DNA from: Neptunomonas japonica DSM 18939
Lineage (GTDB): Bacteria > Pseudomonadota > Gammaproteobacteria > Pseudomonadales > Balneatricaceae
Assembly: GCF_000422765.1 (NCBI RefSeq)
Contig: NZ_AUGR01000006.1
Coordinates: 186,001-250,000, forward strand
Reading direction: 5' to 3'
Length of the DNA: 64,000 nucleotides
Part shown: positions 4,200 through 19,026 of the stretch, piece after piece
How the letters are laid out: each line of letters begins with the position of its first letter
Position numbering within the stretch: the first letter of the stretch is position 1
Notes under the pieces: generated by a model
The model's database searches: none
What the model was told of the DNA's origin: nothing
What the model saw: the letters and a program-made list of their open reading frames with translations, nothing else
Made by a program: the position numbers and the translations under genes

Positions 4200-4400
4200 T
4201 TAGTTACGTAATGTGTCGTAATAACTACGAACATGTTCCGTTTCTTGGTAACCAGAACTTTTAGTTTCTTCTTCTGTTTCTGCGGTTACTTGTGCATTAA
4301 CGGTGCCGGTAACGGCAACAGCGCCAACGGCTGTTCCTGCTAGTCCCAGTGTTTTCAGAAACCCGCGACGCCCTGTATCAGGCTTTTCTTGCTGGCTCAT
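4200..4400 (-). CDS. small twin-arginine signal protein of formate dehydrogenase loci
   Basis: A 66-residue protein, MSQQEKPDTGRRGFLKTLGL..., with a clear Tat motif (GRRGFLK, residues 10-16), a hydrophobic alanine/glycine stretch to about residue 36, and a short acidic tail ending in HVRSYYDTLRN. Proteins of this shape occur almost only just upstream of formate dehydrogenase alpha genes (the 'formate dehydrogenase region TAT target' family). The biochemical role is not known; a part in assembly or export of the complex is inferred from position. It is 28 bases upstream of fdhA and downstream of the TorD-type chaperone. Confidence 0.85.
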   Translation of the reverse strand: MSQQEKPDTGRRGFLKTLGLAGTAVGAVAVTGTVNAQVTAETEEETKSSGYQETEHVRSYYDTLRN

Positions 4401-4447: not shown

Positions 4448-5077
4448 TTATTGTTGTCCGCTCTCACGTGCGGCAGGTGATAACTGCAGGAACCAGTTAT
4501 CTTCCTGTTGCATAAAAGCGGTGCCTAACAAGCCGGCAGCGGTGTAAAACACAGCGTTATCCGCATTCTGCAAATCTGTAAAAAACTTAGTAGCCCAGCT
4601 TTGTAAATGTTGCTGCCAAAACTGGTGTTGTGCTGTATAGCCATGGCCGTTAGTGATGAGTAAGCTCATTACTTCGCACAGCGCTGCAATGTGATCTTCC
4701 GGTTCTTTAACGCTGGGTTGGCGCTCAAAACCGAGTCGGTTTAAGTCTTCGCGTAGTAAAACGAGAGGCTTTTCCATGAGTGACCCGGTTAAGTACCAAC
4801 AGGCAAAAGGCATAAGCTCACCACGACCAACGCCAATAAAAAGGTGATGGTATTCATTATCAAGCTGTTGGGGTCGGCTATGTTTAGCGGCCAGTGCTAA
4901 CGTGCTCCAGCCGCGCGCCATGGGTGTGTCTTCGTCTTGATCAGATTCAAGGCTTGCTAGCCACTCGAGCAGATCGCCGTTTGGTGCTTGGCGCAACAGC
5001 GTGGCGAGCAGGGCGTAGATGTCGGCTCTTAACTGGTCGGTTTCCTGCAGAGCAGGAGTCGCGTTAATCATATTCAT
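4448..5077 (-). CDS. TorD/DmsD-family molybdoenzyme chaperone
   Basis: A cytoplasmic redox-enzyme maturation protein, expected to hold the apo alpha subunit and its Tat signal until the metal cofactor is inserted. It is all-helical in character. It shows the family core ADIYALLATLLRQAPNGDLLEWL near the N-terminus, then LDNEYHHLFIGVGRGELMPFACWYLTGSLMEKPLVLLREDL (given here as a description of residues about 75-115) and a PEDHIAALCEVM stretch. The frame can be extended to 5107, but the start at 5077 has a GGAG ribosome site and leaves a 19-base gap after the ferredoxin stop. The longer form would overlap that gene. It sits between the polyferredoxin and the Tat protein in the FDH operon. Confidence 0.88.
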   Translation of the reverse strand: MNMINATPALQETDQLRADIYALLATLLRQAPNGDLLEWLASLESDQDEDTPMARGWSTLALAAKHSRPQQLDNEYHHLFIGVGRGELMPFACWYLTGSLMEKPLVLLREDLNRLGFERQPSVKEPEDHIAALCEVMSLLITNGHGYTAQHQFWQQHLQSWATKFFTDLQNADNAVFYTAAGLLGTAFMQQEDNWFLQLSPAARESGQQ

Positions 5078-5096
5078 GGTCTCTGACTCCTTAATC

Positions 5097-6797
5097 TTAC
5101 AGTTCAAGTTGCTTTTCAGGGTGTTGTGTTAGGTCGACATAAATGTCTTGAACCCGGCAGTCCTCGCACATTTTTAGTCGGTTAATAGCCTCCCCCTGAA
5201 ACATGCGGTGTTCACTCAGCTTATCGAGCATTTTTTCGACAGTACGTTTGGGTGCAAAAGGCTTACTGCACGTGATGCACTCAAAAGCTTCATCTGTATG
5301 GATCTCGATAGCGTGCTTACGTGTATCCGAAAGCAACAGGCGTGGCTCTAAGGTGATGGCATTTTCGGGGCAGGCGCGCTCGCACAGGTTGCACTGAACA
5401 CAGTTTTTTTCAGTAAAATTAAGCGCCGGCTTTTCCCCTCCACTGGTCAGGGCCTGCGTCGGGCAGACCGCAACACAGGACAAGCATAATGTGCAGCTTG
5501 AGGAGTCGATGGAGACTTGGCCAAAAGGAGAACCCGCCGGCAGGGTGAGGTGTTCGGGTAGTGCTTGAGGTGCGTTTTCAGCTAGGTGACCTAGCGCAGC
5601 AAACAGTGTGTCGCGTTTGTTCTCATGTGAAGTGTTGAAAGCCGCTGGTACTGCTTGCTGGGTAAGCAGGCCATTCAATTGTTCTGGCAAGTCTGTACTC
5701 AGCTGCTCACGACCAATCACTTGGACTTGAGAAGGCTGGTAGCCCAAACCGCTTAACATGGTTTGCGTGAGTTTTACTTCGCGGTTAAGCAGTGTGTGAA
5801 TGGATTCAGGTACAGCCGGTGTATCTAACAACAATATATGGCTAGTGCCTGCGGCCAATGCTGCAAGCCATATTTCTTGGCCTGCTGAGGTTATTTCTTC
5901 TAGTTCAATGGGTATAAGGTTACTAGGTAGCTGTGGCAGCAACTCAGTGACTATCTGTTGGCCTTGTTCGTGATCATGAAGTAATAGGGCAGGTTGCGTG
6001 CCGCCAGCTTCTTGGTAAGCCAGTAAAAGTTTTTGAATATAGTCTAGTAAGCGAGCTGGTTGTGGGAGTGTGTATGTGATTGCACCGGTTGGGCACGCGG
6101 TTGTACATCCTCCTGCACCGTGGCAAATGTGCGGGTCAATATTGATGATATCTTTTATCGAGCTAATAGCGTTTGCTGGGCATACATCTAAGCAGCGAGT
6201 ACATCCGGTTTGCCCTCGGCTTGAGTGCGCACAAATGTCATTATTGATCTGAAAGTAGCGTGGTTTTTCAAATTTGCCAATGTATTCAGGAAGCTGCTGT
6301 ATTACTTCACTGAAGTTATCTGCATGAGGTGATATATGGAAATAACCGGCAGGTGCCAGTTCAGCATTTACAAATAATGACTCTTTGCCCACGTTTAGAA
6401 CTAAATCAAAGGTAGCGCGGTTTTGAGTGAGTTTGGCAAGTTCAATCGATTGTTCTTCATGATGAACAATGACTTGGAACTGGCCTAAAAAGCCTTTAAT
6501 ACCTTCTATTTTTGTTTGGTAGGCGGGTAGGTTTGCTGCCGCGGCTAATGCCTGTTCTAAATGCGTCGTGTCGGTATTTTGTATTGCTTCGGTACACAAT
6601 AGGGTGATGCTGGCCATCTCTTGTAGCTGTTCGGCTGCAAGACGGATCATATCTTCTGGGCCAGTAATTAACAGGTGCCCTTGGGTGCTAAAGCTCACCG
6701 TGGCAGGTGCTAAATTGTGTGGCGGCGTGACACGCGCTTGCGCTGTTTGGCGTGCGGTTTGCTGTGTCAGACTGTTCAAGGGTTGCTCGTTTGTCAT
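5097..6797 (-). CDS. multi-cluster 4Fe-4S ferredoxin-domain protein of the formate dehydrogenase cluster
   Basis: A 566-residue soluble protein with two pairs of ferredoxin motifs: CTRCLDVCPANA and CHGAGGCTTACPTGA in the middle, and CTLCLSCVAVCPTQA with CVQCNLCERACPENA later. Two extra paired cysteines follow (CITCSKPF and CEDCR) and could bind a further metal. The N-terminal part has no recognised motif. Proteins of this architecture recur beside FDH structural genes and FdhD. Their exact role (electron transfer or maturation) is not settled, so the call is by architecture and context. The ATG at 6797 has an AGGTGAGG-type ribosome site. It is preceded by a 282-base leader holding a sigma-54 promoter candidate. 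Confidence 0.85.
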   Translation of the reverse strand: MTNEQPLNSLTQQTARQTAQARVTPPHNLAPATVSFSTQGHLLITGPEDMIRLAAEQLQEMASITLLCTEAIQNTDTTHLEQALAAAANLPAYQTKIEGIKGFLGQFQVIVHHEEQSIELAKLTQNRATFDLVLNVGKESLFVNAELAPAGYFHISPHADNFSEVIQQLPEYIGKFEKPRYFQINNDICAHSSRGQTGCTRCLDVCPANAISSIKDIINIDPHICHGAGGCTTACPTGAITYTLPQPARLLDYIQKLLLAYQEAGGTQPALLLHDHEQGQQIVTELLPQLPSNLIPIELEEITSAGQEIWLAALAAGTSHILLLDTPAVPESIHTLLNREVKLTQTMLSGLGYQPSQVQVIGREQLSTDLPEQLNGLLTQQAVPAAFNTSHENKRDTLFAALGHLAENAPQALPEHLTLPAGSPFGQVSIDSSSCTLCLSCVAVCPTQALTSGGEKPALNFTEKNCVQCNLCERACPENAITLEPRLLLSDTRKHAIEIHTDEAFECITCSKPFAPKRTVEKMLDKLSEHRMFQGEAINRLKMCEDCRVQDIYVDLTQHPEKQLEL

Positions 6798-6945: not shown

Positions 6946-6963
6946 AAGCAAAAGCGACACCAG
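6946..6963 (-). promoter_or_regulatory. sigma-54 type promoter for the ferredoxin-torD-fdhABC genes
   Basis: On the minus strand the sequence reads TGGTGT-CGCTT-TTGCT. It has the invariant GG (6961-6960) and GC (6949-6948) exactly ten bases apart and a perfect TTGCT -12 element. The -24 element matches only its TGG core. It points at the ATG at 6797 and implies a leader of about 140 bases. A palindrome shared with the other FDH promoters lies about 78 bases upstream. Confidence 0.55.
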
Positions 6964-7031
6964 AAAAATCTGAAAAAAGCGCCTTAAAATGGGTGTAGAC
7001 CAGGGCGCTATGTTACGAATTGCTTCACTGT

Positions 7032-7046
7032 GGGACATATTGTCTG
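7032..7046. promoter_or_regulatory. candidate activator site, GGGACA-TAT-TGTCTG
   Basis: One of four copies of a GGGWCA-N3-TGNCCC-like palindrome found only in the intergenic regions of the formate dehydrogenase and tungstate genes. Its centre (7039) is about 78 bases upstream of the -24 element of the minus-strand promoter at 6946-6963, a usual distance for an enhancer-binding protein site. That it binds the activator encoded at 12620-14017 is inferred. Confidence 0.5.
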
Positions 7047-7079
7047 CCTGCCCTGTGGCGTGTGTGTCAATTCGGCGCG

Positions 7080-7775
7080 TTAGCCTTCCAAGTCTGCGTC
7101 GCCAAGATCATCTTCTATCTCTGCAAGTGTCTCTATCTCCTTATCAGTCAATGAGTTGCTGACAGGTGTGGTCGTTTCTTGTGTTTGTTTCTCATTCTCT
7201 TGTGATGAGAGATGTTCGTTTTGTTTTGGTATTAGCGTTTCTTGCTCTTCTGATGTGAGCTCTGTTGTAAGTTCATCTTGTTTTTCATGCATCCAACTAC
7301 GCATTTTGGCGGCAACTTCTTGTGCTAATGCCGGCATCTTGCTGAAGTCTTCGTCATAATCATTGAGGCCGTCACGAATATTGAATTGCGGTAAGTTAAA
7401 CAGCCTGCGTAGTGCTAAATTGCGTAACTCATCACTAACACCCGAGGAGAAAAACTGGCTGAAATCAGACTCTTCACTCAGGCTTTCTAAAGGGGGCATG
7501 TCTTCATCAGAGAGTGGTGGAATGTCGGCTAACTCAAGGTTCTCCTCTGTGCTGCTTTCACTTGTGTTGCTTTTATCTGCATCGCTTTCATGCGGCAGGG
7601 GAGTTGTTTCAATTGATGAGTCGCCAGAGGCACTCTCGACAAGAGTGCGCTCTTGTAGCTTGCTCTGTGATGCAAGGAGTGTGTCGTCCAGCTGATTAGG
7701 TTTGGTTTCTAGCGCTTGCGCTGCTCGTTCTGACTTGAGGCGAGACCAGCGAGAGATAAAAGTCTTATCGTTCAC
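7080..7775 (-). CDS. DUF3306 family protein
   Basis: A 231-residue, highly acidic and Ser/Glu-rich protein without signal peptide or membrane segment. The N-terminus (FISRWSRLKSE) and the core NLALRRLFNLPQFNIRDGLNDYDEDF (residues about 117-142) are characteristic of DUF3306, which is encoded beside formate dehydrogenases with DUF3305. The flanking stretches are low-complexity and probably disordered. It starts with GTG at 7775 and overlaps the end of the DUF3305 gene by 11 bases, so the two are translationally coupled. Function unknown; a role in formate dehydrogenase assembly is inferred from context. Confidence 0.85.
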   Translation of the reverse strand: MNDKTFISRWSRLKSERAAQALETKPNQLDDTLLASQSKLQERTLVESASGDSSIETTPLPHESDADKSNTSESSTEENLELADIPPLSDEDMPPLESLSEESDFSQFFSSGVSDELRNLALRRLFNLPQFNIRDGLNDYDEDFSKMPALAQEVAAKMRSWMHEKQDELTTELTSEEQETLIPKQNEHLSSQENEKQTQETTTPVSNSLTDKEIETLAEIEDDLGDADLEG

Positions 7776-8214
7776 TACTGCGCCCCTTGCCTCTTTTTTT
7801 CTTTTTCTTGCCTTCGTCTATAAGCTCGCCATGTATTCCTAGGTAGCTATCTACCCAGCATTGAACGGCGGCTGGCATAGGTGTTTCTAATATCTGATGC
7901 TCACCGTCCATAAATGAAGCGGCGTCATCTTGGCTGGCAGTCATGTGCACGGGAGTTAATGTGCCGTCTGTTTCATCTTCATCACAGAGCACAAAAAGGT
8001 GAGGTGATGCTGAGTTCAGGTTAAAGCGATATGCCGTACGCTCATCTTTATAGAGTTCTAAATCTATATTGATGTAGCTTTCTCGCTCATCTGATCTGGG
8101 TATTAATTCCTTAATACTCCAGCGCTCTGTTTCCCAACCGCGAGTCAGCACAGGTTCATGCTGTAGGGCTATTTGCATGGGCCAACGATCAATGCTTTTG
8201 CTGGCGGACATCAT
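7765..8214 (-). CDS. DUF3305 family protein
   Basis: A 149-residue cytoplasmic protein. Its N-terminal half (WPMQIALQHEPVLTRGWETERW, described here as residues 11-32) is the conserved DUF3305 signature. The middle resembles a small beta-rich domain (YRFNLNSASPHLFVLCDE), and the C-terminus is a basic KKKKKRGKGR-like tail. The start has an AGGAG ribosome site, and a second ATG follows directly. It is the first gene behind the sigma-54 promoter at 8246-8262 and overlaps DUF3306. The family is known only by its association with FDH genes, and its function has not been established. Confidence 0.85.
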   Translation of the reverse strand: MMSASKSIDRWPMQIALQHEPVLTRGWETERWSIKELIPRSDERESYINIDLELYKDERTAYRFNLNSASPHLFVLCDEDETDGTLTPVHMTASQDDAASFMDGEHQILETPMPAAVQCWVDSYLGIHGELIDEGKKKKKRGKGRSSER

Positions 8215-8245
8215 CCGGCTCCTGTTGTAAATGTATTTAAAGCCT

Positions 8246-8262
8246 TAGCAAGGGATGGGCCA
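8246..8262 (-). promoter_or_regulatory. sigma-54 type promoter for DUF3305-DUF3306
   Basis: The minus strand reads TGGCCC-ATCCC-TTGCT, one mismatch from the sigma-54 consensus TGGCAC-N5-TTGCT, with GG and GC spaced by ten bases. The predicted transcription start falls near 8236, about 20 bases before the DUF3305 ATG. That leaves room for the visible ribosome site. Confidence 0.7.
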
Positions 8263-8403
8263 GCACTGTTTGTTCAGTGTTAATAGTCTGTTGGGACGCG
8301 GCGCATAGGGAGGTTAGCTTGGTCAGCGAAAAGCAGATAAAGGGGGCGAGTAGGTTTGAATCTGAACCTGAGTGGTAAAAAAGGGACAGATATAAAAGTG
8401 TGT

Positions 8404-8418
8404 GGGACATTTTGGCCC
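8404..8418. promoter_or_regulatory. candidate activator site in the DUF3305/fdhD divergent region
   Basis: GGGACA-TTT-TGGCCC, flanked by T and A so that TGGG/CCCA also pairs. It matches the motif at 7032 and 14071. It lies about 150 bases from the leftward -24 element and about 107 bases from the rightward fdhD promoter, so one site could serve both directions. A second GGGACA half-site lies at 8383-8388. Confidence 0.5.
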
Positions 8419-8516
8419 ATGGGGCGAGTAATCCTTTAGTCAGCAATGTCTGTATTTGTCTGTATTTACTGGTGTTTCGTGGAAAGGGGCTGGGTATTGC
8501 TCGTAAGCCGCTTGGC

Positions 8517-8532
8517 AGGAACAGAAATTGCA
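8517..8532 (+). promoter_or_regulatory. weak sigma-54 type promoter for fdhD
   Basis: AGGAAC-AGAAA-TTGCA keeps GG (8518-8519) and GC (8530-8531) with the required ten-base gap and has a perfect TTGCA -12 element. The -24 hexamer has two mismatches. The predicted start near 8543 leaves a short leader before fdhD. Confidence 0.4.
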
Positions 8533-8570
8533 AAGTTAGTCATAACGGATAAAAACTAACGGGTATGCTA

Positions 8571-9440
8571 ATGAGCAGTCAAAATACACAGTTGGTATTG
8601 AGTAAGGCCGCAACGAATTTAACAGAGTCGGTTCAGGCATTAGATGAAAAGGGTGAGCTTCGTGTTGTCGAGATAGCGTGTGAGCGCCCTTTAACGATAT
8701 ATCTCAACAAGCGTGAAATCGTCACTCTGATGACGCTGGGCAGTGACCCTGAAGCACTGGTGCTAGGTTATTTGCGTAATCAAGGGTTTATTCTTACCTT
8801 GGATGAGGTGCGAGCTGTTCAGGTAGATTGGGATGTTGAAGTGGCGGTTGTCGTTACTAATGGCGAGCCACCGGGGCTGGAGGAAAAACTACAGCAACGC
8901 ACAGTAACAACCGGTTGTGGGCAGGGGACTATGTTCGGCAGCCTAATGGATAAAATTGCTGAAGTATCGCTGCCCAAAGCTGACATTAAACAGAGTACCG
9001 TTTACGCACTCCTTAATAATCTTAATCTGCACAATGAAACCTATAAAAATGCAGGTGCAGTGCATGGTTGTGCTATTTGTGAGGGTGAGGAGGTCGTTGC
9101 CTTTGTGGAAGATGTGGGGCGTCACAACGCGGTTGATACGCTAGCGGGGCGAATGTGGCTCGACGGCATTAATGAAAAGAATAAAATTTTCTATACCACA
9201 GGGCGCTTAACCTCTGAGATGGTGATTAAAGTGGCGCAGATGGGTATTCCTATATTGCTGTCGCGTTCAGGTGTTACTCAAATGGGGTTAGCCTTAGCGA
9301 AGGAACTTGGCATTATTATGTTAGCGCGGGCCAAGGGTAAGCACTTCTTAGTATTTAGCGGTGAAGATTCACTGCTGCTAGATGCTATGTCTGCACCTAA
9401 AATTGACGTCAAAATAAAAGCAACGGAAGCTGTATCGTGA
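8571..9440 (+). CDS. fdhD: formate dehydrogenase accessory sulfurtransferase FdhD
   Basis: Transfers sulfur from the cysteine desulfurase IscS to the bis-MGD cofactor, a step needed for active formate dehydrogenase. Family signatures are present: a TLGSDPEALVLGYL helix, the loop TTGCGQGTMFG, HGCAICEGEEVVAFVEDVGRHNAVDTLAG (residues about 165-193) and YTTGRLTSEMVIK. In E. coli the active loop is CGxC; here the second cysteine is Gly (CGQG), so only the first cysteine remains. An ATG at 8565 is also possible, but the one at 8571 has a better spaced GGG ribosome site. It is divergent from the FDH operon and overlaps the next gene by four bases. Confidence 0.95.
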   Translation: MSSQNTQLVLSKAATNLTESVQALDEKGELRVVEIACERPLTIYLNKREIVTLMTLGSDPEALVLGYLRNQGFILTLDEVRAVQVDWDVEVAVVVTNGEPPGLEEKLQQRTVTTGCGQGTMFGSLMDKIAEVSLPKADIKQSTVYALLNNLNLHNETYKNAGAVHGCAICEGEEVVAFVEDVGRHNAVDTLAGRMWLDGINEKNKIFYTTGRLTSEMVIKVAQMGIPILLSRSGVTQMGLALAKELGIIMLARAKGKHFLVFSGEDSLLLDAMSAPKIDVKIKATEAVS

Positions 9441-10345
9441 GCGAGTTACCCCCTACCTTTTTAAATGTTCGTCAATTGACTGAATATCTGCATCTTAATG
9501 AGAAAAAAATCTATGTGATGGCAGCTGAAGGGAAGATCCCTGCAACAAAGCTGACCGGAAAATGGCTGTTTCCTAAGGTGCTGGTGGATCGCTGGTTATT
9601 GGATAGCTGTCATGGTGGTTTGATGACAGATCGCCTGATTTTAGGGGGGAGTGATGATCCGTTGCTACAAGCGGCGGCCATTCGTCTTACACAGCAGCTC
9701 AGGGCGCAAGCGCTGTTTAGTTATACCGTAACGGGTACAACAATGGGGCTTGAGTTGTTGGCGCAAGGGCATGCCGACGCCTGTGTGATTCATTGGGGCA
9801 GAGCGGAAGAAAGTGAAGTACGCCACCCTGCGTTAATCCAGCAATACAGTGCCTCTAAGAATTGGATACTCGTTCATCTTTTTTGCCGCAGCCAAGGACT
9901 CATTGTACGTGCGCAAGATCAATCACGTTTTGAAGATCCAACAACAGCGCTAGATCATAATACGCGCTGGGCGGTACGACAAAAAGGAGCAGGATCTCAG
10001 CGTTTTTTAAAGGAATGGTTGATGACCCACTCATATCCCTTTGAGCGGCTAACGATCACTAATACCGCGTATTCAGAGCGTGAGATGGTGTCTATGATTG
10101 CTCGGGGAGAAGCCGATATTGGCCCAGGTACACTCAGTGCTGCTAAGGAATTTGGTTTAGGGTTTATTCCTGTGTGTGAAGAGAGCTTTGATCTTGTGGT
10201 GCCACGCAGTGTGTATTTTAGGAAGTTGTTACAGCAGTTGTTCGAATTTTTGCAGGGCTCTGAGGGCGTTATGTTAGCGCATCGTTTGCAAGGATATGAC
10301 CTTAGCCGCAGTGGGCGGTTAGTCTGGAACTCTGAGGGTGAATAA
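9437..10345 (+). CDS. HTH regulator with periplasmic-binding-like domain, probable molybdate/tungstate or cofactor sensor
   Basis: A 302-residue one-component regulator. The N-terminus (residues about 8-55, FLNVRQLTEYLHLNEKKIY...GKWLFPKVLVDRWL) is an excisionase/MerR-like helix-turn-helix. The remainder is a PBP-like domain (GTTMGLELLAQGHADACVIHWG, then ...QKGAGSQRFLKEWL and ARGEADIGPGTLSAAKEFGLGFIPV), as in the PF12727 proteins near molybdenum genes. There is no signal peptide. The GTG start sits inside the fdhD stop (GTGA overlap), so the two are translationally coupled. A hairpin follows. The ligand is unknown; an oxyanion or cofactor-related small molecule is inferred from the domain and neighbours. 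Confidence 0.8.
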   Translation: MSELPPTFLNVRQLTEYLHLNEKKIYVMAAEGKIPATKLTGKWLFPKVLVDRWLLDSCHGGLMTDRLILGGSDDPLLQAAAIRLTQQLRAQALFSYTVTGTTMGLELLAQGHADACVIHWGRAEESEVRHPALIQQYSASKNWILVHLFCRSQGLIVRAQDQSRFEDPTTALDHNTRWAVRQKGAGSQRFLKEWLMTHSYPFERLTITNTAYSEREMVSMIARGEADIGPGTLSAAKEFGLGFIPVCEESFDLVVPRSVYFRKLLQQLFEFLQGSEGVMLAHRLQGYDLSRSGRLVWNSEGE

Positions 10346-10355
10346 CTAAAATAAG

Positions 10356-10384
10356 GCAGCACCAAAATAACTAGTTAGTGCTGC
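10356..10384. terminator. bidirectional hairpin between convergent genes
   Basis: A 7-bp GC-rich stem, GCAGCAC / GTGCTGC, with a 15-base loop. On the plus strand GTGTTTCTT follows, and on the minus strand CTTATTTT. It lies between the regulator gene ending at 10345 and the kinase gene ending at 10392, and probably serves both. Confidence 0.6.
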
Positions 10385-10391
10385 GTGTTTC

Positions 10392-12623
10392 TTAGGTTTG
10401 TTCATCTGCGAGTGAGCGGCGATTGGTACGCTCTGCTGCAGTCAATCCGTCAAGTATCCCTTCCAGTTTGCTGTCTGTAGAGATATTGGCGCGGTGTAAT
10501 AGGTACACAGAAAATACAGTGCCTTCACCAACGACTGAGGATACTTTGATATCACCGCCATGGCGGCGCACAATACCGTAACTGACAGATAGGCCAAGAC
10601 CGGTACCGCTCTTTTTTGTGGTGAAGAAGGGATCAAAAATATGCTGTAGGTTCTGCTCGCTAATCCCTAGTCCTTTATCTATAACGCGAATAATGACGCC
10701 TTTAACATTGCCTTGTGTACTCTCATTATCAGCACCTTTTTTGTCGATGCTGTCTTTCTCTGCATCATCACTCTCGATCCAATCAGAAGTGTATAACTGG
10801 ACGCTGCCAGGCTCAGTTAGTGAGTGTGACGCGTTAAGAATTAGGTTAACTAAGACTTGCTGGATTTGCTGGTAATTGATCTGTACAGAGCAGCTAGCAT
10901 TGTAACTTTTCTTTATACTGACCTGTTGCTTTTCCAGAGCATGAGAGACTAGGAGTAGAGTGTCATCAATGACTTGGTTTATCTGGTGGCTTTGGTAACT
11001 ATCTACGTAGTGATCTGGGCGGCTGTACTGCAACAGGTTGTTGATCAGTGAGCGGATACGATACACCTGACGAATGACCATATCGACTTCTTCTTGAGCA
11101 GGCTCTACTGCATCTCCTAGCTCTGCTACCAGTAAATCCATATTGCCGAGTATCACCGCCGCTGGGTTATTTATTTCATGAGCAATACCGGCGGTTAGCT
11201 CGCCTAATACTGCCAGTTTTTCATTATCTAATAATTTCTTTCGCGTGGTTTTTAGTAAGCGTATATGTTGTTTAAGTGCGTCTGTTCGGTTGCGTAGTGA
11301 GCTGGTACGTTTTTCGACGGTAATCTCTAGCTGATCGTGAGCTTGCAGTATTTCCTGCTCACGGCTTTCAAGTAAATCTAACATGGCATCAAATTGATGG
11401 GCTAGGTCAACTAATTCATCGGAGGTGTCCAACTTGCCAATTCTCGGGTGTATGGATCCATCATCACGTACCGCTGTCACCACAGAGTGGATGCGAGCCA
11501 GAGGGCTGATGAGTACACGAGTACGTTGCAGTATTACAAACCCGGATATCAGCATAATGAGCCCAATCAGGCTGCCTGATTCAAACAGCGTCTTATAATA
11601 AATCCTGCTGAACGGTGCTTCTGTAAAACCGGTATAGATCATACCTATGCGCTGGCCGGTTAAATCTATGAGAGGTTGATAAGCAGAGATATACCAGTCA
11701 TTAACGACAAAGGCGCGGTTAATCCAGGTTAAGCCGCGTGTCATGACGTAGTTGTGCACCTCGGCAGATACGCGTGTGCCAATAGCGCGCTCTTGCAGAG
11801 ACATCTGTCTTTTATTGCTTGAGTTGTCATCATGAGCAGCGTTCGGGCTGTCAGAAAAATTTTGGTTTTGTGGCACATTGGTACTTATGCGAACATCATC
11901 AAGAAAGAGTGTAACCGTACCAATACCGCCTGCTGGAAGAGTGCCGGGGCCATAAACTAGATCACGAATGGTATCGACTGCACGTGTGGTGTTGTTAAGA
12001 ATACTGCCAGAATCGAGTATGCCGATCAGCTCACCAAATTCATCTTTAACGGGTAGTAATGTCCTAATAACCATCGCTTTATCTTCAATCAAGCGGTTAG
12101 TAGGGATGGCTCTGGGTGTTTCCGTTAAGGATATTTGGGCTTGTTTCTCAAGACCAAGGCTGATGAGGTCGAGCATTTTTTTATCAAGTACTGTGAGTCC
12201 TTTTAACGGCTCTCCGCGATATAGGCGGGGCAGTAGCGGCGCTAGTGCGGGGTCTTTGATATCAGCAATTAGATCGGTAGAGAGAAAGCGCAAAAAATCC
12301 AGTTGACGCCCTTGGCGTGTTTCGAGCATTTGTACTTGAATAGCGCGTTGGTTATCAAGCTGAAGATTAGTGCGAAACTCGTAGCTACCTGCTAGCTGGG
12401 TGAGCACATTGAGCTGCTCTTGTTGCATTATGTCCAGCGTACCCTTGGCTACTGAAAGATCAGCTCTGACTTTCATATAGAGCTGCTGATCGGTATAGCT
12501 GCTGGCCCAGTAGGCGGCCATAATGACAAAGCCAATGGCAGTTAATATGAGAGGCGCCAAGGTCAGTAATAATAGCTTGTTGCGTAGCGAGCTATTAATT
12601 TTTTGCCACAAGGCCCAGATCAT
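10392..12623 (-). CDS. membrane-bound sensor histidine kinase with extracytoplasmic sensor domain
   Basis: Sensor of a two-component pair with the sigma-54 activator just upstream. Order in the 743 residues: transmembrane helix about 17-40, a periplasmic double-cache-like sensor region of about 300 residues, a second helix near 350-370 (SGSLIGLIMLISGFVIL), a HAMP-like linker and a coiled coil. Then come HisKA with the phospho-acceptor His482 (GIAHEINNPAAV), N-box VNLILNASHS, G1 DKGLGIS and G2 GTGLGLSVSYG. All catalytic boxes are intact. A stretch of charged residues (about 615-640) is inserted in the ATPase domain. Its ATG overlaps the regulator stop by four bases. The signal is unknown; formate, an electron acceptor or tungstate are possibilities from context. 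Confidence 0.9.
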   Translation of the reverse strand: MIWALWQKINSSLRNKLLLLTLAPLILTAIGFVIMAAYWASSYTDQQLYMKVRADLSVAKGTLDIMQQEQLNVLTQLAGSYEFRTNLQLDNQRAIQVQMLETRQGRQLDFLRFLSTDLIADIKDPALAPLLPRLYRGEPLKGLTVLDKKMLDLISLGLEKQAQISLTETPRAIPTNRLIEDKAMVIRTLLPVKDEFGELIGILDSGSILNNTTRAVDTIRDLVYGPGTLPAGGIGTVTLFLDDVRISTNVPQNQNFSDSPNAAHDDNSSNKRQMSLQERAIGTRVSAEVHNYVMTRGLTWINRAFVVNDWYISAYQPLIDLTGQRIGMIYTGFTEAPFSRIYYKTLFESGSLIGLIMLISGFVILQRTRVLISPLARIHSVVTAVRDDGSIHPRIGKLDTSDELVDLAHQFDAMLDLLESREQEILQAHDQLEITVEKRTSSLRNRTDALKQHIRLLKTTRKKLLDNEKLAVLGELTAGIAHEINNPAAVILGNMDLLVAELGDAVEPAQEEVDMVIRQVYRIRSLINNLLQYSRPDHYVDSYQSHQINQVIDDTLLLVSHALEKQQVSIKKSYNASCSVQINYQQIQQVLVNLILNASHSLTEPGSVQLYTSDWIESDDAEKDSIDKKGADNESTQGNVKGVIIRVIDKGLGISEQNLQHIFDPFFTTKKSGTGLGLSVSYGIVRRHGGDIKVSSVVGEGTVFSVYLLHRANISTDSKLEGILDGLTAAERTNRRSLADEQT

Positions 12624-14017
12624 AGAGCGCTCTCGTACTCGGTTGTCGTTTGCTCTTCACTTGCCCAGCTCGTTAGTTTACGGTCTAGTGTTTTTCTTGA
12701 AACACCCAGTGCACGAGCGGCAGAGGATTTATTGCCGCTATGTTGCTCAAGGGTAAGTAGGATATGCTGCTTTTCGACAGCGTCCATTGTCCACCCTGCA
12801 AAGTTGCCTGTTGTTTTCGAGTCATTTGCGTTTTGCTCACGGAAGTACTCGGCCGGCAATTTTCCTAATAAAATACAACGTTCAATGAGGTTTTTGAGCT
12901 CGCGAATATTTCCCGGCCAATGATAATGCTGCATTTCCTTGAGGTCGTCGTGGCTAAAAGGAATGGCTGCAAGCCCTAATTCAAGCGATAACGTATTTGA
13001 AAAATGATGGATGAGTTCAGGTATATCTTCGCGGCGATCTCTTAGTGGAGGCAAGGTAATGCTAAGTACGTTGAGACGATAATACAGATCTTCACGAAAG
13101 CGTCCTGAGGATACTTCATCTTTTAGCTGTCGGTTAGTTGCTGCAATAATACGCACATCAATACTGATCTCTTGCTCGCTACCGACAGGGCGCACTGCCT
13201 TTTCTTCTAAGGCGCGCAGTAGCTTTGCTTGCATTAGTAAGGGCATTTCACCCACTTCATCAAGAAATAGTGTGCCACCATTGGCAAAGCTAAATAGTCC
13301 ATCGCGTGCTTTGAGGGCGCCAGTAAAAGAGCCTTTGGTGTGGCCGAAGAGCTCTGCTTCCAATAACTCAGGAGAGATGGCCCCGCAATTAATGGGTACA
13401 AATGCACCGCTGCGGTTACTAAATTGATGCAGCATTCTGGCAGCGAGTTCTTTGCCTGTACCAGATTCACCCTCAATCATGACGGCAGAAGGTGTTGGAG
13501 CTACACGATGAATAACTTCCTGTACTTGGCGTATAGAGGGGCTGTTGCCCATCATATTGGTAATTGGGAAAGCTTTTTCAACATCGCGTTGCAGAACAAA
13601 ATTCGCCCGAGTCATAGCGCGGCGCTCTAGGCAGCGCTCAACGGCATTCATCATCTGTTCTAATCGGAAGGGTTTGAGGATGAAGTCGCTGGCACCTGCA
13701 CGAAGTGCTTTGATGACTGTTTCAAGATCAGCGAAGGCCGTCATAAAAATAATATCGCTACTACGCTTGGTTTGTTCCATTGCTTCGCTCCACTCCATCC
13801 CAGAGCGTCCCGGTAATTTTATATCGACAATCAGCAAATCAAAGTGACAGCGTTTACGTAACTCTTCGGCTTCTTCAATGCTGCCGGCGGTTTCAACTAA
13901 AGCAAATTTCTTTTTGAGCGCTTTATTAAGAAAGCTGCACATCCCAGGCTCGTCATCGACTACCAATACAGAAACAGCAATAGGGGATGGGCTAATTTTA
14001 TCTGAATCCGATTTCAT
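12620..14017 (-). CDS. sigma-54-dependent response regulator (NtrC family)
   Basis: A DNA-binding activator of sigma-54 promoters. The 465 residues contain a receiver domain (acidic D21-D22, phospho-acceptor Asp65 in VDIKLPG, LKPF near 115-120) and an AAA+ domain with Walker A GESGTGKE, Walker B GTLFLDEVGEMP and the sigma-54 contact loop GSFTGA. They end in a Fis-type helix-turn-helix (ARALGVSRKTLDRKL). The contact loop has Ser in place of the usual Ala of GAFTGA, a variant seen in some members. It is the first gene of the pair and divergent from tupA. The shared palindromes at 7032, 8404, 14071 and 14106 are its likely sites, though this is inferred. Confidence 0.93.
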   Translation of the reverse strand: MKSDSDKISPSPIAVSVLVVDDEPGMCSFLNKALKKKFALVETAGSIEEAEELRKRCHFDLLIVDIKLPGRSGMEWSEAMEQTKRSSDIIFMTAFADLETVIKALRAGASDFILKPFRLEQMMNAVERCLERRAMTRANFVLQRDVEKAFPITNMMGNSPSIRQVQEVIHRVAPTPSAVMIEGESGTGKELAARMLHQFSNRSGAFVPINCGAISPELLEAELFGHTKGSFTGALKARDGLFSFANGGTLFLDEVGEMPLLMQAKLLRALEEKAVRPVGSEQEISIDVRIIAATNRQLKDEVSSGRFREDLYYRLNVLSITLPPLRDRREDIPELIHHFSNTLSLELGLAAIPFSHDDLKEMQHYHWPGNIRELKNLIERCILLGKLPAEYFREQNANDSKTTGNFAGWTMDAVEKQHILLTLEQHSGNKSSAARALGVSRKTLDRKLTSWASEEQTTTEYESAL

Positions 14018-14070
14018 TTAAGTCTCTCTGCATGACCTTTATGGGTAGCGCCGCGATCAAAAGCATATTG

Positions 14071-14093
14071 GAGAGGGACAAATTGACCCTCTC
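14071..14093. promoter_or_regulatory. 23-bp near-perfect palindrome, candidate activator site 1
   Basis: GAGAGGG and CCCTCTC arms around an A/T centre. All 11 base pairs match except one A-A pair (14078/14086). The core is GGGACA-AAT-TGACCC. It lies between the divergent regulator and tupA genes, about 180 bases upstream of the tupA sigma-54 promoter, and could also autoregulate the two-component genes. Confidence 0.6.
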
Positions 14094-14105
14094 TATTTTT
14101 CGGTT

Positions 14106-14118
14106 GGTCATTATGACC
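14106..14118. promoter_or_regulatory. 13-bp perfect palindrome, candidate activator site 2
   Basis: GGTCA-TTA-TGACC, followed by C so that it fits the same GGNCA-N3-TGNCC core. Its centre is exactly 30 bases from that of the neighbouring palindrome, about three helical turns. This fits cooperative binding of an enhancer-binding protein on one face of the DNA. It is about 140 bases upstream of the -24 box. Confidence 0.6.
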
Positions 14119-14258
14119 CATATTAATCGCTTTTGCAGTTAAGACTATTGTCTCGATTTAGTATTAATCAAATAAAATCACCGCTTATTACCTATCGAAA
14201 CCTCGTAATAGCGGGGTTTTAAATGGCTTTTGGGCATTGGCTTTGTGTCGTATTGGGT

Positions 14259-14274
14259 TGGCATTTAAATTGCT
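14259..14274 (+). promoter_or_regulatory. sigma-54 promoter of the tupABC-mobAB-moeA-moaA operon
   Basis: TGGCAT-TTAAA-TTGCT, with GG at 14260-14261 and GC at 14272-14273, ten bases apart. This is one mismatch from the consensus. The predicted start near 14285 is about 37 bases before the tupA ATG. Two palindromic sites lie upstream at a suitable distance. Confidence 0.8.
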
Positions 14275-14321: not shown

Positions 14322-15149
14322 ATGAAAAAATGGATCTCATGTTTGTTCTCAATAGTGCTGTTGTTGAGTGTCTCGTTAGGGGCTAGTGCTACAGAAAATA
14401 TCATTCGCCTAGCAACCACTACCAGTACGTATAACTCAGGCTTGCTAGATAAATTATTACCTGTGTTTGAGCAAAAATTCGGTGTTAAGGTTCATGTGAT
14501 TGCTGTTGGAACGGGCAAAGCGTTACGCATGGGTAGGGACGGTGATGTGGATCTTGTAATGACTCATGCCCCGGCTGCTGAAAAAGCTTTTATCGATCAG
14601 GGGCACGGTATTGAAGCAAAAAGCGTGATGTATAACGATTTTGTTGTGGTTGGACCAGCTAGTGATCCGGCAAAAATCAAAGGCAGCATGGATGTAGAGC
14701 AGGCATTGCGCGCTATCGCTGCGAGTAAATCACAGTTTATCTCTCGTGGTGATGATTCAGGTACGCATAAGAAAGAGTTAGCTCTTTGGAAAGCGGCAGA
14801 TGCAGCCCCTACCTTTGATGGTTATAAGCAGATAGGCCAAGGCATGGGGAAAGTGTTACAGGTTTCTGATGAGCTGCAAGGTTACACCATGACCGATCGT
14901 GGGACATGGTTAGCTTACCAGGCGCGTTTGAATCTTGAACTGATGGTTGCAGGGGATAAGCGTTTGTTTAACCCGTACCAGGTGATGTTAGTGAATCCTG
15001 AGCGTTACAAAGGGCTTAATACTGAGGGAGCACGCTCGTTAGCGCAGTGGTTAGTGTCTGCACAAGGGCAGAAAATGGTTAATGATTTTCGTATTAATGG
15101 AGAAGTGCTGTTTCATGGCTCTGCTCAACAAATCGTGACGGCTCAGTAA
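14322..15149 (+). CDS. tupA: tungstate ABC transporter substrate-binding protein
   Basis: Periplasmic oxyanion-binding protein that delivers tungstate to TupBC. It has an N-terminal signal peptide (MKKWISCLFSIVLLLSVSLGASA, about 23 residues), then the TupA signature ATTTSTYNSGLLDKL and the binding-loop motifs VGTGKALRMGRDGDVDLVMTH, SRGDDSGTHKKE and YTMTDRGTWLAY. The TTTS element and the RGDDSGTH segment distinguish TupA from molybdate-specific ModA. It is the first gene of a long operon behind a sigma-54 promoter. At 275 residues it has the usual length. Discrimination between tungstate and molybdate cannot be proved from sequence. Confidence 0.93.
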   Translation: MKKWISCLFSIVLLLSVSLGASATENIIRLATTTSTYNSGLLDKLLPVFEQKFGVKVHVIAVGTGKALRMGRDGDVDLVMTHAPAAEKAFIDQGHGIEAKSVMYNDFVVVGPASDPAKIKGSMDVEQALRAIAASKSQFISRGDDSGTHKKELALWKAADAAPTFDGYKQIGQGMGKVLQVSDELQGYTMTDRGTWLAYQARLNLELMVAGDKRLFNPYQVMLVNPERYKGLNTEGARSLAQWLVSAQGQKMVNDFRINGEVLFHGSAQQIVTAQ

Positions 15150-15192: not shown

Positions 15193-15894
15193 ATGGAGAT
15201 GAGTTTACTCGACACCTGTATTGATGCCATCAGGCTGCTATTTAGCGGTAATACTGAGCTATGGAGCATCATATGGGTGTCTTTTTGCGTTTCAATGACC
15301 GCTATTTTGATATCTGCAGTACCGGCTATTTTTGTGGGTTTTTTGTTGGCAATGGTTGATTTTCCTGGGCGCTGGATGGTCATCGCATTATTCAATGCAT
15401 TGATGGCTATTCCTACTGTGGTAGTGGGGTTGACGCTTTATTTGTTGCTGTCTCGTAGCGGCCCTTTTGGCGAGTTACATCTGTTATTTAGCCAACCGGC
15501 AATGGTGATAGGGCAGGTTTTGCTTTGTTTTCCTGTGTTGGTTTGTATGAGTCATGCTGCGTTTCAGGGAATTGACCGGCGTGCCTGGGAAACAGCACGC
15601 ACACTGGGTGCTCATTGCGGGCGGGCAGCGTTAACCATTGCCTGTGAAGCGCGGTTTTCTCTATTGGGGGCGATGTTGGCTGGCTTTAGCCGCATCATAT
15701 CTGAAGTGGGTTGCTCAATGATGGTTGGCGGAAATATCTTGGGTTATACCCGCAATATACCAACCGCTATTGCATTAGAAACCAGTAAAGGAGAGTTCTC
15801 GCAAGGCGTTGCTCTCGGGTTAGTTCTCTTAATGTTGGCGCTTGTTTTGAACTTCACGTTGGCTTCGGTGCGCGGTAAAGGGCAATTGATCTAA
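15193..15894 (+). CDS. tupB: tungstate ABC transporter permease
   Basis: Inner-membrane channel of the TupABC importer. The 233 residues carry about five to six membrane segments, beginning after a short N-terminal amphipathic stretch. The ATPase-contact (EAA-like) loop reads ETARTLGAHCGRAALTIA. The stretch ISEVGCSMMVGGNI is a common TupB signature. It starts 43 bases after tupA. The ATG at 15193 has a possible GTGA/GGAG-type site upstream. Confidence 0.9.
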   Translation: MEMSLLDTCIDAIRLLFSGNTELWSIIWVSFCVSMTAILISAVPAIFVGFLLAMVDFPGRWMVIALFNALMAIPTVVVGLTLYLLLSRSGPFGELHLLFSQPAMVIGQVLLCFPVLVCMSHAAFQGIDRRAWETARTLGAHCGRAALTIACEARFSLLGAMLAGFSRIISEVGCSMMVGGNILGYTRNIPTAIALETSKGEFSQGVALGLVLLMLALVLNFTLASVRGKGQLI

Positions 15895-15948
15895 AAGAAT
15901 AAATGAGCTGTTTTGTGTTCTTGGAAATGATTTTATGAGGAAAGTAGC

Positions 15949-16626
15949 GTGGGACTTGAATTAAAAATAGATAACCTTGTGAAGCGCTTTGGAACTCGTG
16001 AGATATTTCGCATCGAGCAACTTCATGTTCAAGAAGGCCAGAGCCTGCACTTAAAAGGTGAAAATGGTGTCGGTAAAACGACCTTAATGAAAATTATGGC
16101 AGGGCTTGAAAAGCCTTGTAGTGGTAATGTTTCAGTCACGCCAAATCATCGCCGCTGGTGGTCTGATCGCCTTCATCCAGACGTTATTTATCTGCATCAA
16201 ACGCCTTATGTTTTCATGAGTAACGTCGTTGATAACGTTGCTTATGGTTTAAAGCTGCGTAAGGGGAATCGGCATGATGTTAAAAACAAGGTGCAGCAAG
16301 CGTTAGCATGGGCGCGCTTAGAGCACCTGGCAGAACAACCGGCATATTCGTTATCCGGTGGTGAAAGGCAACGCCTTGCTCTGGCACGAGCTTGGATTTT
16401 GGCTCCGCGTTTGCTGTTTCTTGATGAGCCAACAGCCAATTTAGACCGTCGCTCGGTGAGTACTGTTGCCGAGTTAGTAGGGCAGTTGTTAGAGCAGGGG
16501 ACGACTATCATGGTGTCTAGCCATCAAAGCAATACAGTGACTGAGCTGTGTAACCGACATCTTCAGTTAGAGGATGGCGCTTTGCATGAAGTAGAGTCAC
16601 TAACGCAGGTGAAACGTTATGCATAG
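15949..16626 (+). CDS. tupC: tungstate ABC transporter ATP-binding protein
   Basis: Cytoplasmic ATPase of the tungstate importer, 225 residues. Walker A is GENGVGKTT, the signature is LSGGERQRLALARA and Walker B is LLFLDEPTANLD, followed by the H-loop SSHQ. It has no C-terminal Mop/regulatory domain of the ModC kind, so tungstate feedback through this subunit is not expected. The start is GTG at 15949 with a GAGG ribosome site. The end overlaps the mobAB start by eight bases. Confidence 0.93.
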   Translation: MGLELKIDNLVKRFGTREIFRIEQLHVQEGQSLHLKGENGVGKTTLMKIMAGLEKPCSGNVSVTPNHRRWWSDRLHPDVIYLHQTPYVFMSNVVDNVAYGLKLRKGNRHDVKNKVQQALAWARLEHLAEQPAYSLSGGERQRLALARAWILAPRLLFLDEPTANLDRRSVSTVAELVGQLLEQGTTIMVSSHQSNTVTELCNRHLQLEDGALHEVESLTQVKRYA

Positions 16627-17755
16627 TGAGCAGATTACTGCCGTTGTATTGGCGGGGGGCATGGCCAGGCGGATGGGTGGTGTTGATAAAGGCTGGGCTG
16701 ACCTCAATGGCAAGCCGCTCATTCGTCATGTGTTGGATAGGGTATTACCACAAGTATCGCGTTGCTTGATTAATGCAAACCGCAGCTTAGATGCCTATGG
16801 CACTTTGGGTTTGCCAGTCGTGACTGACCTTGAAGGCGGTTTCGAAGGACCCTTAATGGGCATTGCTACTGGTTTGCATCATGCCACAACGGATTGGGTG
16901 TTATTTATCCCCTGTGATGGACCCTTTCTGCCGCAAGAGTTAGTCACACGTATGCTCGCTAAGGCAGAGCAAAGTGATGTAGAAATCGCAGTGGCGCATG
17001 ATGGTAAGCGTCTGCAGCCGGTGGTGGCTTTAATTAAGCGTGAGCTGTTAGAAAGCGTGCGCGCGATATTGGCAACCGGTGAGAGAAAGATTGATCGTTG
17101 GTACGTACAACAGCGCATGGTTGAAGTGGATTTCTCTGATTACCCTGATGCTTTTGTTAATGTGAACCGCAAAGATGATATCGCACAGTTGCAGCAGGTG
17201 CCTAAACTACTTGGACTGGCTGCTTGGAGTGGCACAGGCAAAACGACACTGCTTAAGCAGTTGCTACCTGAACTAAAAGCACGAGGTGTTCGGGTGGGTG
17301 TGATCAAACATGCTCATCATCAGTTTGACGTGGACCACCCCGGAAAAGACAGTTATGAAATACGCCATGCCGGTGCTGATCAGATGCTGATCTGTTCTTC
17401 AAAGCGATGGGCTTTAATGTCTGAAGAGCCGCAAAGTGCTACGCCATCACTCTCTAGTATGCTTAATAAGTTGGAGCACTCCGCATTAGACTTGGTGATG
17501 GTCGAAGGCTTTAAAAAAGAGGTATTCCCTAAAATTGAGCTGTACCGGCGAGAAGTTAATAAACCTCAATTACATGGCGAGGATGAAAACATTATTGCAG
17601 TGGCGAGTGATGAAGCTATTCAGCTTGTACGTGACCTACCCTTATTGGATTTGAATAATATAGGGAGCATTGTCGCTTTTATTTTGTCATACCTAAATGA
17701 AAAGGGTATTAAGGGTGGCTCTTTTCACAACGCGGCTGTTGGAGACAAATTATGA
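16619..17755 (+). CDS. mobAB: fused molybdopterin guanylyltransferase MobA / adaptor MobB
   Basis: A bifunctional 378-residue protein. The first about 190 residues are MobA, which joins GMP to the metal-pterin to make the guanine dinucleotide cofactor: AVVLAGGMARRMGGVDKGW is the nucleotide-binding loop and FIPCDGPFLP the Asp-containing metal site. From about residue 200 it is MobB, a P-loop GTPase-like adaptor (GLAAWSGTGKTTLLKQLL; GVIKHAHHQFDVDHPGKDS). MobA and MobB are separate in E. coli; fusions are known in other bacteria. It overlaps both tupC and moeA, so it is part of one transcript. bis-MGD is the cofactor form needed by the FDH encoded here. Confidence 0.93.
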   Translation: MHSEQITAVVLAGGMARRMGGVDKGWADLNGKPLIRHVLDRVLPQVSRCLINANRSLDAYGTLGLPVVTDLEGGFEGPLMGIATGLHHATTDWVLFIPCDGPFLPQELVTRMLAKAEQSDVEIAVAHDGKRLQPVVALIKRELLESVRAILATGERKIDRWYVQQRMVEVDFSDYPDAFVNVNRKDDIAQLQQVPKLLGLAAWSGTGKTTLLKQLLPELKARGVRVGVIKHAHHQFDVDHPGKDSYEIRHAGADQMLICSSKRWALMSEEPQSATPSLSSMLNKLEHSALDLVMVEGFKKEVFPKIELYRREVNKPQLHGEDENIIAVASDEAIQLVRDLPLLDLNNIGSIVAFILSYLNEKGIKGGSFHNAAVGDKL

Positions 17756-19011: not shown

Positions 19012-19026
19012 AGATGAAGGTGAAAC

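Follow-up and report, generated by a model that had tools for sequence, protein, structure and literature searches.

Gene content of the locus

The DNA described here is a 64 kb window from Neptunomonas japonica DSM 18939 (contig NZ_AUGR01000006.1), and all window coordinates refer to this 64 kb stretch. The host genome (4.39 Mb, 39 contigs) is G000 among the genomes (G) and loci (L) of our comparison. Between 673 and 20022 the window carries genes for a formate dehydrogenase (FDH), its accessory proteins, a Tup-type transporter and cofactor synthesis, and among them a sensor kinase and a response regulator (RR) that probably control the other genes through palindromes lying upstream of sigma-54 promoters. 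The minus-strand genes run from fdhB through fdhA, formate_TAT, the torD-like gene, Fd566 and DUF3306 to DUF3305; after these come fdhD and a TaoR-like gene on the plus strand, the kinase and RR on the minus strand, and tupABC-mobAB-moeA-moaA on the plus strand. The gene names in this fdh/tup block are working names, and the features are as follows.

673..1293, minus: fdhB, 4Fe-4S subunit (domain match and position beside fdhA)
1307..4171, minus: fdhA, formate dehydrogenase alpha subunit (Pfam molybdopterin domains; best model TIGR01591, 484.1 bits, under its cut-off of 666.25)
4200..4400, minus: formate_TAT, small twin-arginine protein of 66 residues (TIGR02811, 80.9 bits, cut-off 48.45)
4448..5107, minus: TorD-like chaperone (Pfam Nitrate_red_del; TorD model below its cut-off)
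5097..6797, minus: Fd566, multi-4Fe-4S protein (polyferredoxin) of 566 residues (domain search)
7080..7775, minus: DUF3306 protein (domain search)
7765..8214, minus: DUF3305 protein (domain search)
8565..9440, plus: fdhD (Pfam FdhD-NarQ, 259.6 bits; TIGR00129, 140.5 bits, narrowly below the 140.9 cut-off)
9437..10345, plus: HTH_17 + PBP_like regulator, which we take to be TaoR-like (Pfam architecture matches TaoR)
10392..12623, minus: sensor kinase, probable formate sensor (two-module periplasmic Cache, sCache_3_3, then HAMP, HisKA and HATPase)
12620..14017, minus: RR (REC, sigma-54 AAA+ with GSFTGA, and Fis helix-turn-helix; from domains and motifs)
14322..15149, plus: tupA-like binding protein (sole model match NF041772 TupA, E 2.8e-72, 243.3 bits, under its cut-off of 400)
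15193..16626, plus: tupB-like and tupC-like genes (TupB 180 of 320 bits; TupC 113.9 of 400 bits, outscored by generic ABC models)
16619..20022, plus: mobAB, moeA and moaA, cofactor genes that follow tup (mobAB scores above the cut-offs of MobA and MobB; moeA and moaA from translations and conserved order)

The formate_TAT gene occupies the gap between torD and fdhA, and since it closes this gap the arrangement suggests one operon through torD, formate_TAT, fdhA and fdhB. The RR has an intact Asp65, acidic pair (VDD), Walker motifs and GSFTGA loop. Its architecture, its phospho-acceptor Asp and acidic pair, the adjacent kinase and the palindromes upstream of -24/-12 promoters point to a member of the NtrC family. 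At this locus the nearest genomes are G007 (Neptunomonas sp. OB1, of the same genus), then N. qingdaonensis and N. antarctica. A scan of the window with Rfam, in which a riboswitch control was looked for, gave zero families at the gathering score.

Palindromes and sigma-54-type promoters

Three intergenic regions of the block, 936 bp in total, hold the sites of interest: region A between RR and tupA, region B between DUF3305 and fdhD, and region C between DUF3306 and Fd566. Palindromes were searched as 15-mers, and sigma-54 elements were scored in bits with a matrix.

14075..14089, no strand: palindrome A1, 0 mismatches to GGGWCANNNTGWCCC, between RR and tupA
14105..14119, no strand: palindrome A2, 1 mismatch to GGGWCANNNTGWCCC, 30 bp from A1 in a tandem pair
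8404..8418, no strand: palindrome B, 1 mismatch to GGGWCANNNTGWCCC, flanked by two divergent sigma-54 promoters
7032..7046, no strand: palindrome C, 2 mismatches to GGGWCANNNTGWCCC, centre 77-78 bp from the promoter element
14259..14274, plus: sigma-54-type promoter of tupA, TGGCATTTAAATTGCT, GG-N10-GC, 13.3 bits
8247..8262, minus: sigma-54-type promoter of DUF3305-DUF3306, GG-N10-GC, 14.8 bits
8517..8532, plus: sigma-54-type promoter of fdhD and the TaoR-like gene, GG-N10-GC, 11.7 bits
6947..6962, minus: sigma-54-type promoter of the Fd566-torD-formate_TAT-fdhA-fdhB operon, 9.3 bits, the weakest of the four

A preliminary description of this DNA had placed four palindromes and four GG-N10-GC promoters in the intergenic regions of the block. 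All eight are there: two palindromes are slightly displaced (14071 becomes 14075, 14106 becomes 14105), and the promoters, at 6947, 8247, 8517 and 14259, score 9.3-14.8 bits. With up to two mismatches the window contains seven palindromes, four of them inside the 936 bp (Poisson p ~5e-7; first-order Markov expectation 4.1 per 64 kb), and it contains 43 sigma-54 matches of at least 9 bits, again with four inside the 936 bp (p ~0.004). A weight matrix built from 42 sites has the consensus tGGGWCA-WWW-TGWCCCa.

Two further candidates were inspected. A sigma-54-like match before fdhA (4293-4308) was rejected because it lies within the formate_TAT coding sequence and is repeated at that position (region D) in no relative but the closest one, G007. 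An inverted repeat resembling AGACTATTGTCT lies at 14142-14153, after the paired palindromes and before the tupA promoter. The ACTATTGTC core recurs in five of the eight loci inspected (four Neptunomonas and Amphritea), and the repeat may bind another regulator or belong to the promoter of the RR gene itself.

Conservation and breadth

RR orthologs (52-95% identity) are found in 14 of the 57 searched genomes besides our own. Eleven genomes with the fdh/tup cluster, our own counted, were compared region by region. In region A, all eleven genomes have a palindrome with at most two mismatches and a sigma-54 element directed at the target gene (in G036 this region lies between RR and mobAB), and eight have two sites. 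Region B holds a palindrome between two outward promoters in 11/11. In region C the promoter is again present in all, while a recognisable palindrome, centred 77-78 bp from the promoter element, is found in ten, having decayed in G003 (position weight matrix score 1.8). Where two sites form a pair, their spacing is mostly 27-34 bp; about 82 bp separate the two strongest tup sites of Shewanella. The preliminary description had staked its regulon on conservation of the palindromes in related genomes, and since the sites are conserved this claim survives.

The system extends well beyond these genomes. We tested 16 genomes bearing Fd566 (ten Shewanella, four Oceanospirillum, Marinospirillum and Marinobacterium): each carries the RR (61-78% identity), always in divergent orientation to tupABC, and tupA is preceded by a sigma-54 element of at least 13 bits. 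In a sample across the class the RR (E <= 1e-120) is present in 26 of 369 genomes, our own counted. For loci outside the training set of the site matrix we searched for composites, i.e. a palindrome 50-230 bp upstream of a sigma-54 element. A composite stands before the target gene at 17 of 25 class-wide RR loci (0.5 in Markov shuffles), at 16/16 RR loci of the Shewanella/Oceanospirillum type (shuffles 0) and at 3/5 loci of the OFA type described below (shuffles 0).

A further 80 named fdh loci comprise 58 from Shewanella, 19 others (among them L167, the G030 training locus) and three from Neptunomonas that had already been used. By a strict scan the site seemed to be missing from most fdh loci of Shewanella; this was overturned by the matrix scan, which finds degenerate sites with promoters before DUF3305 in 58/58. 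These loci are closely related and amount to few independent events. Among the 19 others, a composite precedes DUF3305 in 15 and Fd566 in 10.

A separate observation concerns two Oceanospirillum loci (L251 at 10443, L252 at 10755), where a palindrome inside the RR gene is followed by a sigma-54-like match 64 bp before the kinase gene.

One branch of the family has a different target. In G009, G018, G029 and G031 the 20 kb retrieved with the RR-kinase pair holds neither fdh genes nor tupA/tupB. Directly downstream of the pair, in 4/4, lie one or more palindromes, a sigma-54 element and an OFA-family transporter of the major facilitator superfamily (MFS); the palindromes have two mismatches in G018 and G029, and the G029 promoter reaches only 9.7 bits. 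A fifth OFA-type locus, in G217, has no promoter match (the five are L076, 6091-8050; L077; L078, 11817-13769; L080; and L302). This transporter was found in none of 13 other genomes queried. In the RR tree the four OFA-type RRs group together (support 97/96), beside the fdh/tup-type RRs of the same family (88/72).

A proposed feed-forward circuit

How might these elements work together? Formate in the periplasm would be sensed by the kinase (10392-12623), which would phosphorylate the RR (12620-14017). The RR would then bind GGGWCA-N3-TGWCCC sites, often pairs about three helical turns apart, and activate the sigma-54 promoters of four transcription units: Fd566-torD-formate_TAT-fdhAB, DUF3305-DUF3306, fdhD with the TaoR-like gene, and tupABC-mobAB-moeA-moaA. 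The result would be a feed-forward circuit: the substrate would induce the dehydrogenase along with the sulfurtransferase and chaperones that serve it, and at the same time tungstate uptake and synthesis of the pterin cofactor. Metal feedback would probably be added by the TaoR-like protein, which is also one of the targets.

We give such formate-kinase, RR and sigma-54 feed-forward control of FDH and tungsten supply a probability of roughly 0.78. The sequence itself shows the domains, the sites and promoters, their conservation, their linkage to the RR and the formate-type residues; from these we infer the DNA binding, the transcription, the formate signal, tungstate as the Tup cargo and the role of TaoR. 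The earlier proposal that one sigma-54 two-component system drives the dehydrogenase, its accessory genes and tungstate uptake is supported, and it survived its hardest test, the comparison with TaoR given below. New beyond that proposal are the formate-sensor-like kinase, the paired sites, the conservation across the Gammaproteobacteria and the repeated loss of the kinase. Among the literature matches listed there is no earlier report of this fdh/tup regulon, most subscription journals lying outside the coverage.

Several results weigh against this circuit. The TupA, TupB and TupC genes score below the NCBIfam cut-offs of their models, and because the FdhA, FdhD, TupA, TupB and TupC models all match under their cut-offs, tungstate rather than molybdate is only the likely cargo of Tup. 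Eight of the 25 class-wide RR loci lack a composite before a recognised gene; several of these are on cut contigs, and in three the composite is there but no gene beside it is recognised. In Shewanella a composite stands before fdhD at 31/58 loci (11 bits) and a site before Fd566 at one of 57 genes. The Shewanella fdh arm would, on these counts of 58, 31 and 1, cover DUF3305 and in part fdhD, with the Fd566 site mostly lacking. In Oceanospirillum, none of four fdh loci has a composite before the fdh genes although the RR is present.

The palindrome alone is also uninformative. A scan of our own genome at one mismatch, a range that leaves weaker sites such as 7032 (two mismatches) outside it, gave 15 palindromes vs 15 for the reversed control, i.e. 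no enrichment. Of these 15, three are in the block, 11 are in open reading frames (ORFs), one of them with a promoter-like match within the same ORF, and one is intergenic without a sigma-54 element. Across the 57 genomes scanned lone palindromes show no excess, and the exact 13-mer core gave 39 sites in 13 genomes vs 38 for the control. Sixteen of those 39 are in fdh/tup clusters and 23 elsewhere, mostly in ORFs. Two ORF-internal core sites (L403, L405) have a promoter-like match at a suitable distance, and none of the 23 outside the clusters is intergenic with a sigma-54 match of at least 10.5 bits. Scans for lone palindromes were rejected as a regulon marker, since the counts do not exceed those of the controls to any extent that matters (15 vs 15, 39 vs 38). 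The specific mark is the palindrome together with a sigma-54 element in intergenic DNA.

The signal of the kinase

The sensor of the kinase matches Pfam sCache_3_3 (E 1e-24, 87.0 bits vs a cut-off of 28.8), and its predicted periplasmic part was modelled with a predicted local distance difference test (pLDDT) of 93.2 and a predicted template-modelling score (pTM) of 0.90. A profile of the sensor has two matches of E <0.01 among PDB sequences, 8py1 and 8py0, both formate-bound chemoreceptor domains. In a Foldseek search with the predicted model many Cache domains come up, 8py0 at ranks 2-3 and 8py1 at rank 8, which speaks for a formate signal. Against it count the top rank, held by another chemoreceptor, MkcA (9heh), and the extent of the fold match with the formate sensors, a single module (TMq ~0.29).

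The passages on PacF in PMC12501870, a citing paper on a formate chemoreceptor, report that changes at R142, T145 and T158 affected formate binding, and those in PMC12415202 assign formate to sCache_3_3 domains in gut receptors. At the positions matching PacF, R, T and T/S occur jointly in 53 of 54 kinases, the exception being L290; in the window kinase they are R245, T248 and T283, and all five OFA-type kinases keep them. The gap from T to T/S is exactly 12 residues, as in PacF, in 17/53 and 13-34 residues in the others; the Neptunomonas kinases have some of the longest gaps (residues 249-282 in the window). From these residues and the related structures, formate is the most likely ligand of the kinase.

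The strongest competitor comes from Shewanella oneidensis, where SO_4717 and SO_4718, presumed orthologs, are a kinase and a sigma-54 regulator beside tupAB; the passages of PMC5826389 name SO_4719 and SO_4720 as TupA and TupB. Our Shewanella comparison is Shewanella sp. ANA-3, with an RR of 63% and a kinase of 45% identity divergent from tupA, S. oneidensis itself lying outside the genomes searched. SO_4717 is labelled 'Tungstate-responsive histidine kinase' in PMC5148205, a further point against formate, and SO_4718 is the 'regulator for tungstate (molybdate) transport' in PMC2667191. The kinase may accordingly be read as a sensor of tungstate or molybdate, in a two-component system otherwise as we describe it, and the RR-kinase pair does adjoin tupABC in all ten Shewanella examined. 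The passages that carry these labels give no experiment on the signal, and in the passages on SO_4717/SO_4718 we found no operator, FDH link or formate signal; these are proposed here by comparison. In addition to the residues in 53/54 kinases and the formate-bound nearest sequence relatives of solved structure, the four OFA-type genomes keep the sensor residues with the pair before a monocarboxylate-type transporter and tupA/tupB absent from the 20 kb fetched. The evidence favours formate over the label of the S. oneidensis counterpart, and we consider tungstate or molybdate an unlikely signal. Two expression records are on hand: PMC2667191 mentions, from unpublished data, SO4718 among regulators induced in anaerobic iron-reducing conditions, and the passages of PMC5826389 on a fur mutant have the fdh genes and tupAB both lowered, which is co-expression at most.

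Could the signal be another small carboxylate, e.g. L-lactate? In the rewired lineages the gene that follows the system encodes an OFA-family transporter, best matched by the L-lactate MFS model NF049980 (G009 325.2 and G031 317.6 bits, cut-off 320), with oxalate/formate antiporter models scoring lower, which again speaks against formate. According to the passages of PMC12415202, lactate sensors are of the sCache_2 type with other residues, whereas formate goes with sCache_3_3, and another carboxylate as the signal of the kinase seems a little less probable still than tungstate or molybdate.

Ownership of the palindromes

The block contains a second candidate for binding the palindromes, the TaoR-like protein. 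In order to separate the two we looked at genomes with one regulator only. Ten genomes have the RR without a close TaoR: G133, G179, G356 and G374 have none at E <= 1e-25, G086 and G217 have only 31-35% relatives, and G009, G018, G029 and G031 have only weak matches to the PBP part. A site and promoter precede the target gene in six of the ten (G133, G356, G086, G009, G018 and G031). G029 and G217 have paired palindromes and no promoter at 11 bits, G179 is weak with a recognised target absent, and G374 has no palindrome. The clearest case is G133 (L282), with the whole fdh/tup cluster, the RR and no TaoR, in which perfect tandem palindromes lie between two strong sigma-54 promoters.

Conversely, among 16 TaoR loci, from 15 genomes in which no full-length RR match exceeds 43%, two have a composite. 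These two exceptions, which weigh against the RR as owner, are fdh loci with TaoR in fragmented assemblies: L336 (G397, 180 contigs) and L339 (G170, 560 contigs). They may be assembly gaps, because in G371 an RR fragment at a contig edge beside TaoR escaped the detection threshold; G371 was left out of the TaoR-only set, hence the 16 loci. On these counts (6/10 vs 2/16) the site and promoter track the RR more than the TaoR-like protein. The least probable reading, and a very improbable one, assigns the palindromes as operators to the TaoR-like HTH_17/PBP_like protein and makes the sigma-54 system incidental: the TaoR-like gene lies beside fdhD in many clusters and G397 and G170 combine TaoR and composite with the RR undetected, but 14/16 TaoR loci lack the composite, the OFA-type genomes G009, G018 and G031 and the cluster of G133 have it without a close TaoR, and a position 50-230 bp upstream of sigma-54 elements suits an enhancer.

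Known relatives and significance

FhlA of Escherichia coli is a formate-responsive sigma-54 activator of formate dehydrogenase genes, and a cytoplasmic formate sensor rather than a response regulator. The likeness to the proposed circuit lies in formate-responsive sigma-54 activation; the difference is the membrane kinase and receiver domain found here. Against the FhlA model NF011958 the RR scores 241.1 bits of an 830 cut-off in the AAA+/helix-turn-helix part only, its N-terminus being a receiver. With AtoC, NtrC and ZraR it shares the REC-AAA+-Fis architecture and enhancer-like palindromes upstream of sigma-54 promoters. However, it is far below these NCBIfam equivalogs (AtoC 387.6 of 714, NtrC 376.9 of 558.6, ZraR 355 of 760) and has its own operator.

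The kinase has in common with PacF, 8py0 and 8py1 a Cache_3-type module and the R/T/T residues. Theirs feeds chemotaxis, whereas the window kinase has a histidine kinase output that would lead to metal-cofactor genes. TaoR, reportedly described in Desulfovibrio by Rajeev et al. in 2019, is said to be an excisionase-like helix-turn-helix and PBP-like protein beside tungsten genes. The HTH_17/PBP_like protein of the block resembles it as a further regulator, but explains the palindromes poorly.

These results provide an operator, a regulon and a candidate ligand for a two-component system of many Gammaproteobacteria, including S. oneidensis, a standard electron-transfer organism in which the counterpart bears a tungstate-responsive label. 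Should the kinase bind formate, a substrate-driven tungsten supply would be feed-forward, unlike the usual view of metal feedback. This would be relevant to the engineering of tungsten and molybdenum formate dehydrogenases for CO2 reduction.

Loss of the kinase

A wider evolutionary account, to which we give even odds, would run as follows. A formate kinase/sigma-54 family ties metal-cofactor supply to the substrate and not the metal. At least five lineages have lost the kinase, and the phosphorylation residues of their receivers have mostly decayed; the activator, operators and promoters are kept, so that the RR would be phosphorylation-independent, perhaps gated by the TaoR-like protein as a metal sensor. 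In a side branch the same operator now serves a monocarboxylate transporter. Such parallel losses of kinase and phospho-residues would offer natural examples of response regulators turning phosphorylation-independent.

An adjacent kinase is absent at eight of 64 RR loci. One of these, the second RR of G356 (L306), was excluded from the kinase-loss counts and the RR tree because G356 has a kinase beside its other RR copy. For the remaining seven of 63 RR loci (L079, L287, L296, L298, L299, L300 and L305), the kinase sensor was not found genome-wide in G036, G086, G127, G318, G267, G376 or G134; the search in G127 gave only a match of 4.5e-4 at the HAMP end, and 8/8 control genomes gave E <= 1e-16.

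The receivers of these seven RRs differ from those with a kinase. Asp65 is lost in 4/7 vs 0/56 kinase-linked RRs (Fisher 6e-5), and a change at Asp65 or in the acidic pair is seen in 6/7 vs 0/56 (Fisher 1e-7), G086 being intact; neither test corrects for relatedness, and the 63 loci were not sampled at random. The AAA+ motifs are largely kept, and palindromes with sigma-54 elements are present in 7/7. On an RR tree built without the receiver domain and without outgroups, kinase loss maps as seven changes, of which at least five are forced by well-supported branches, some branches being long.

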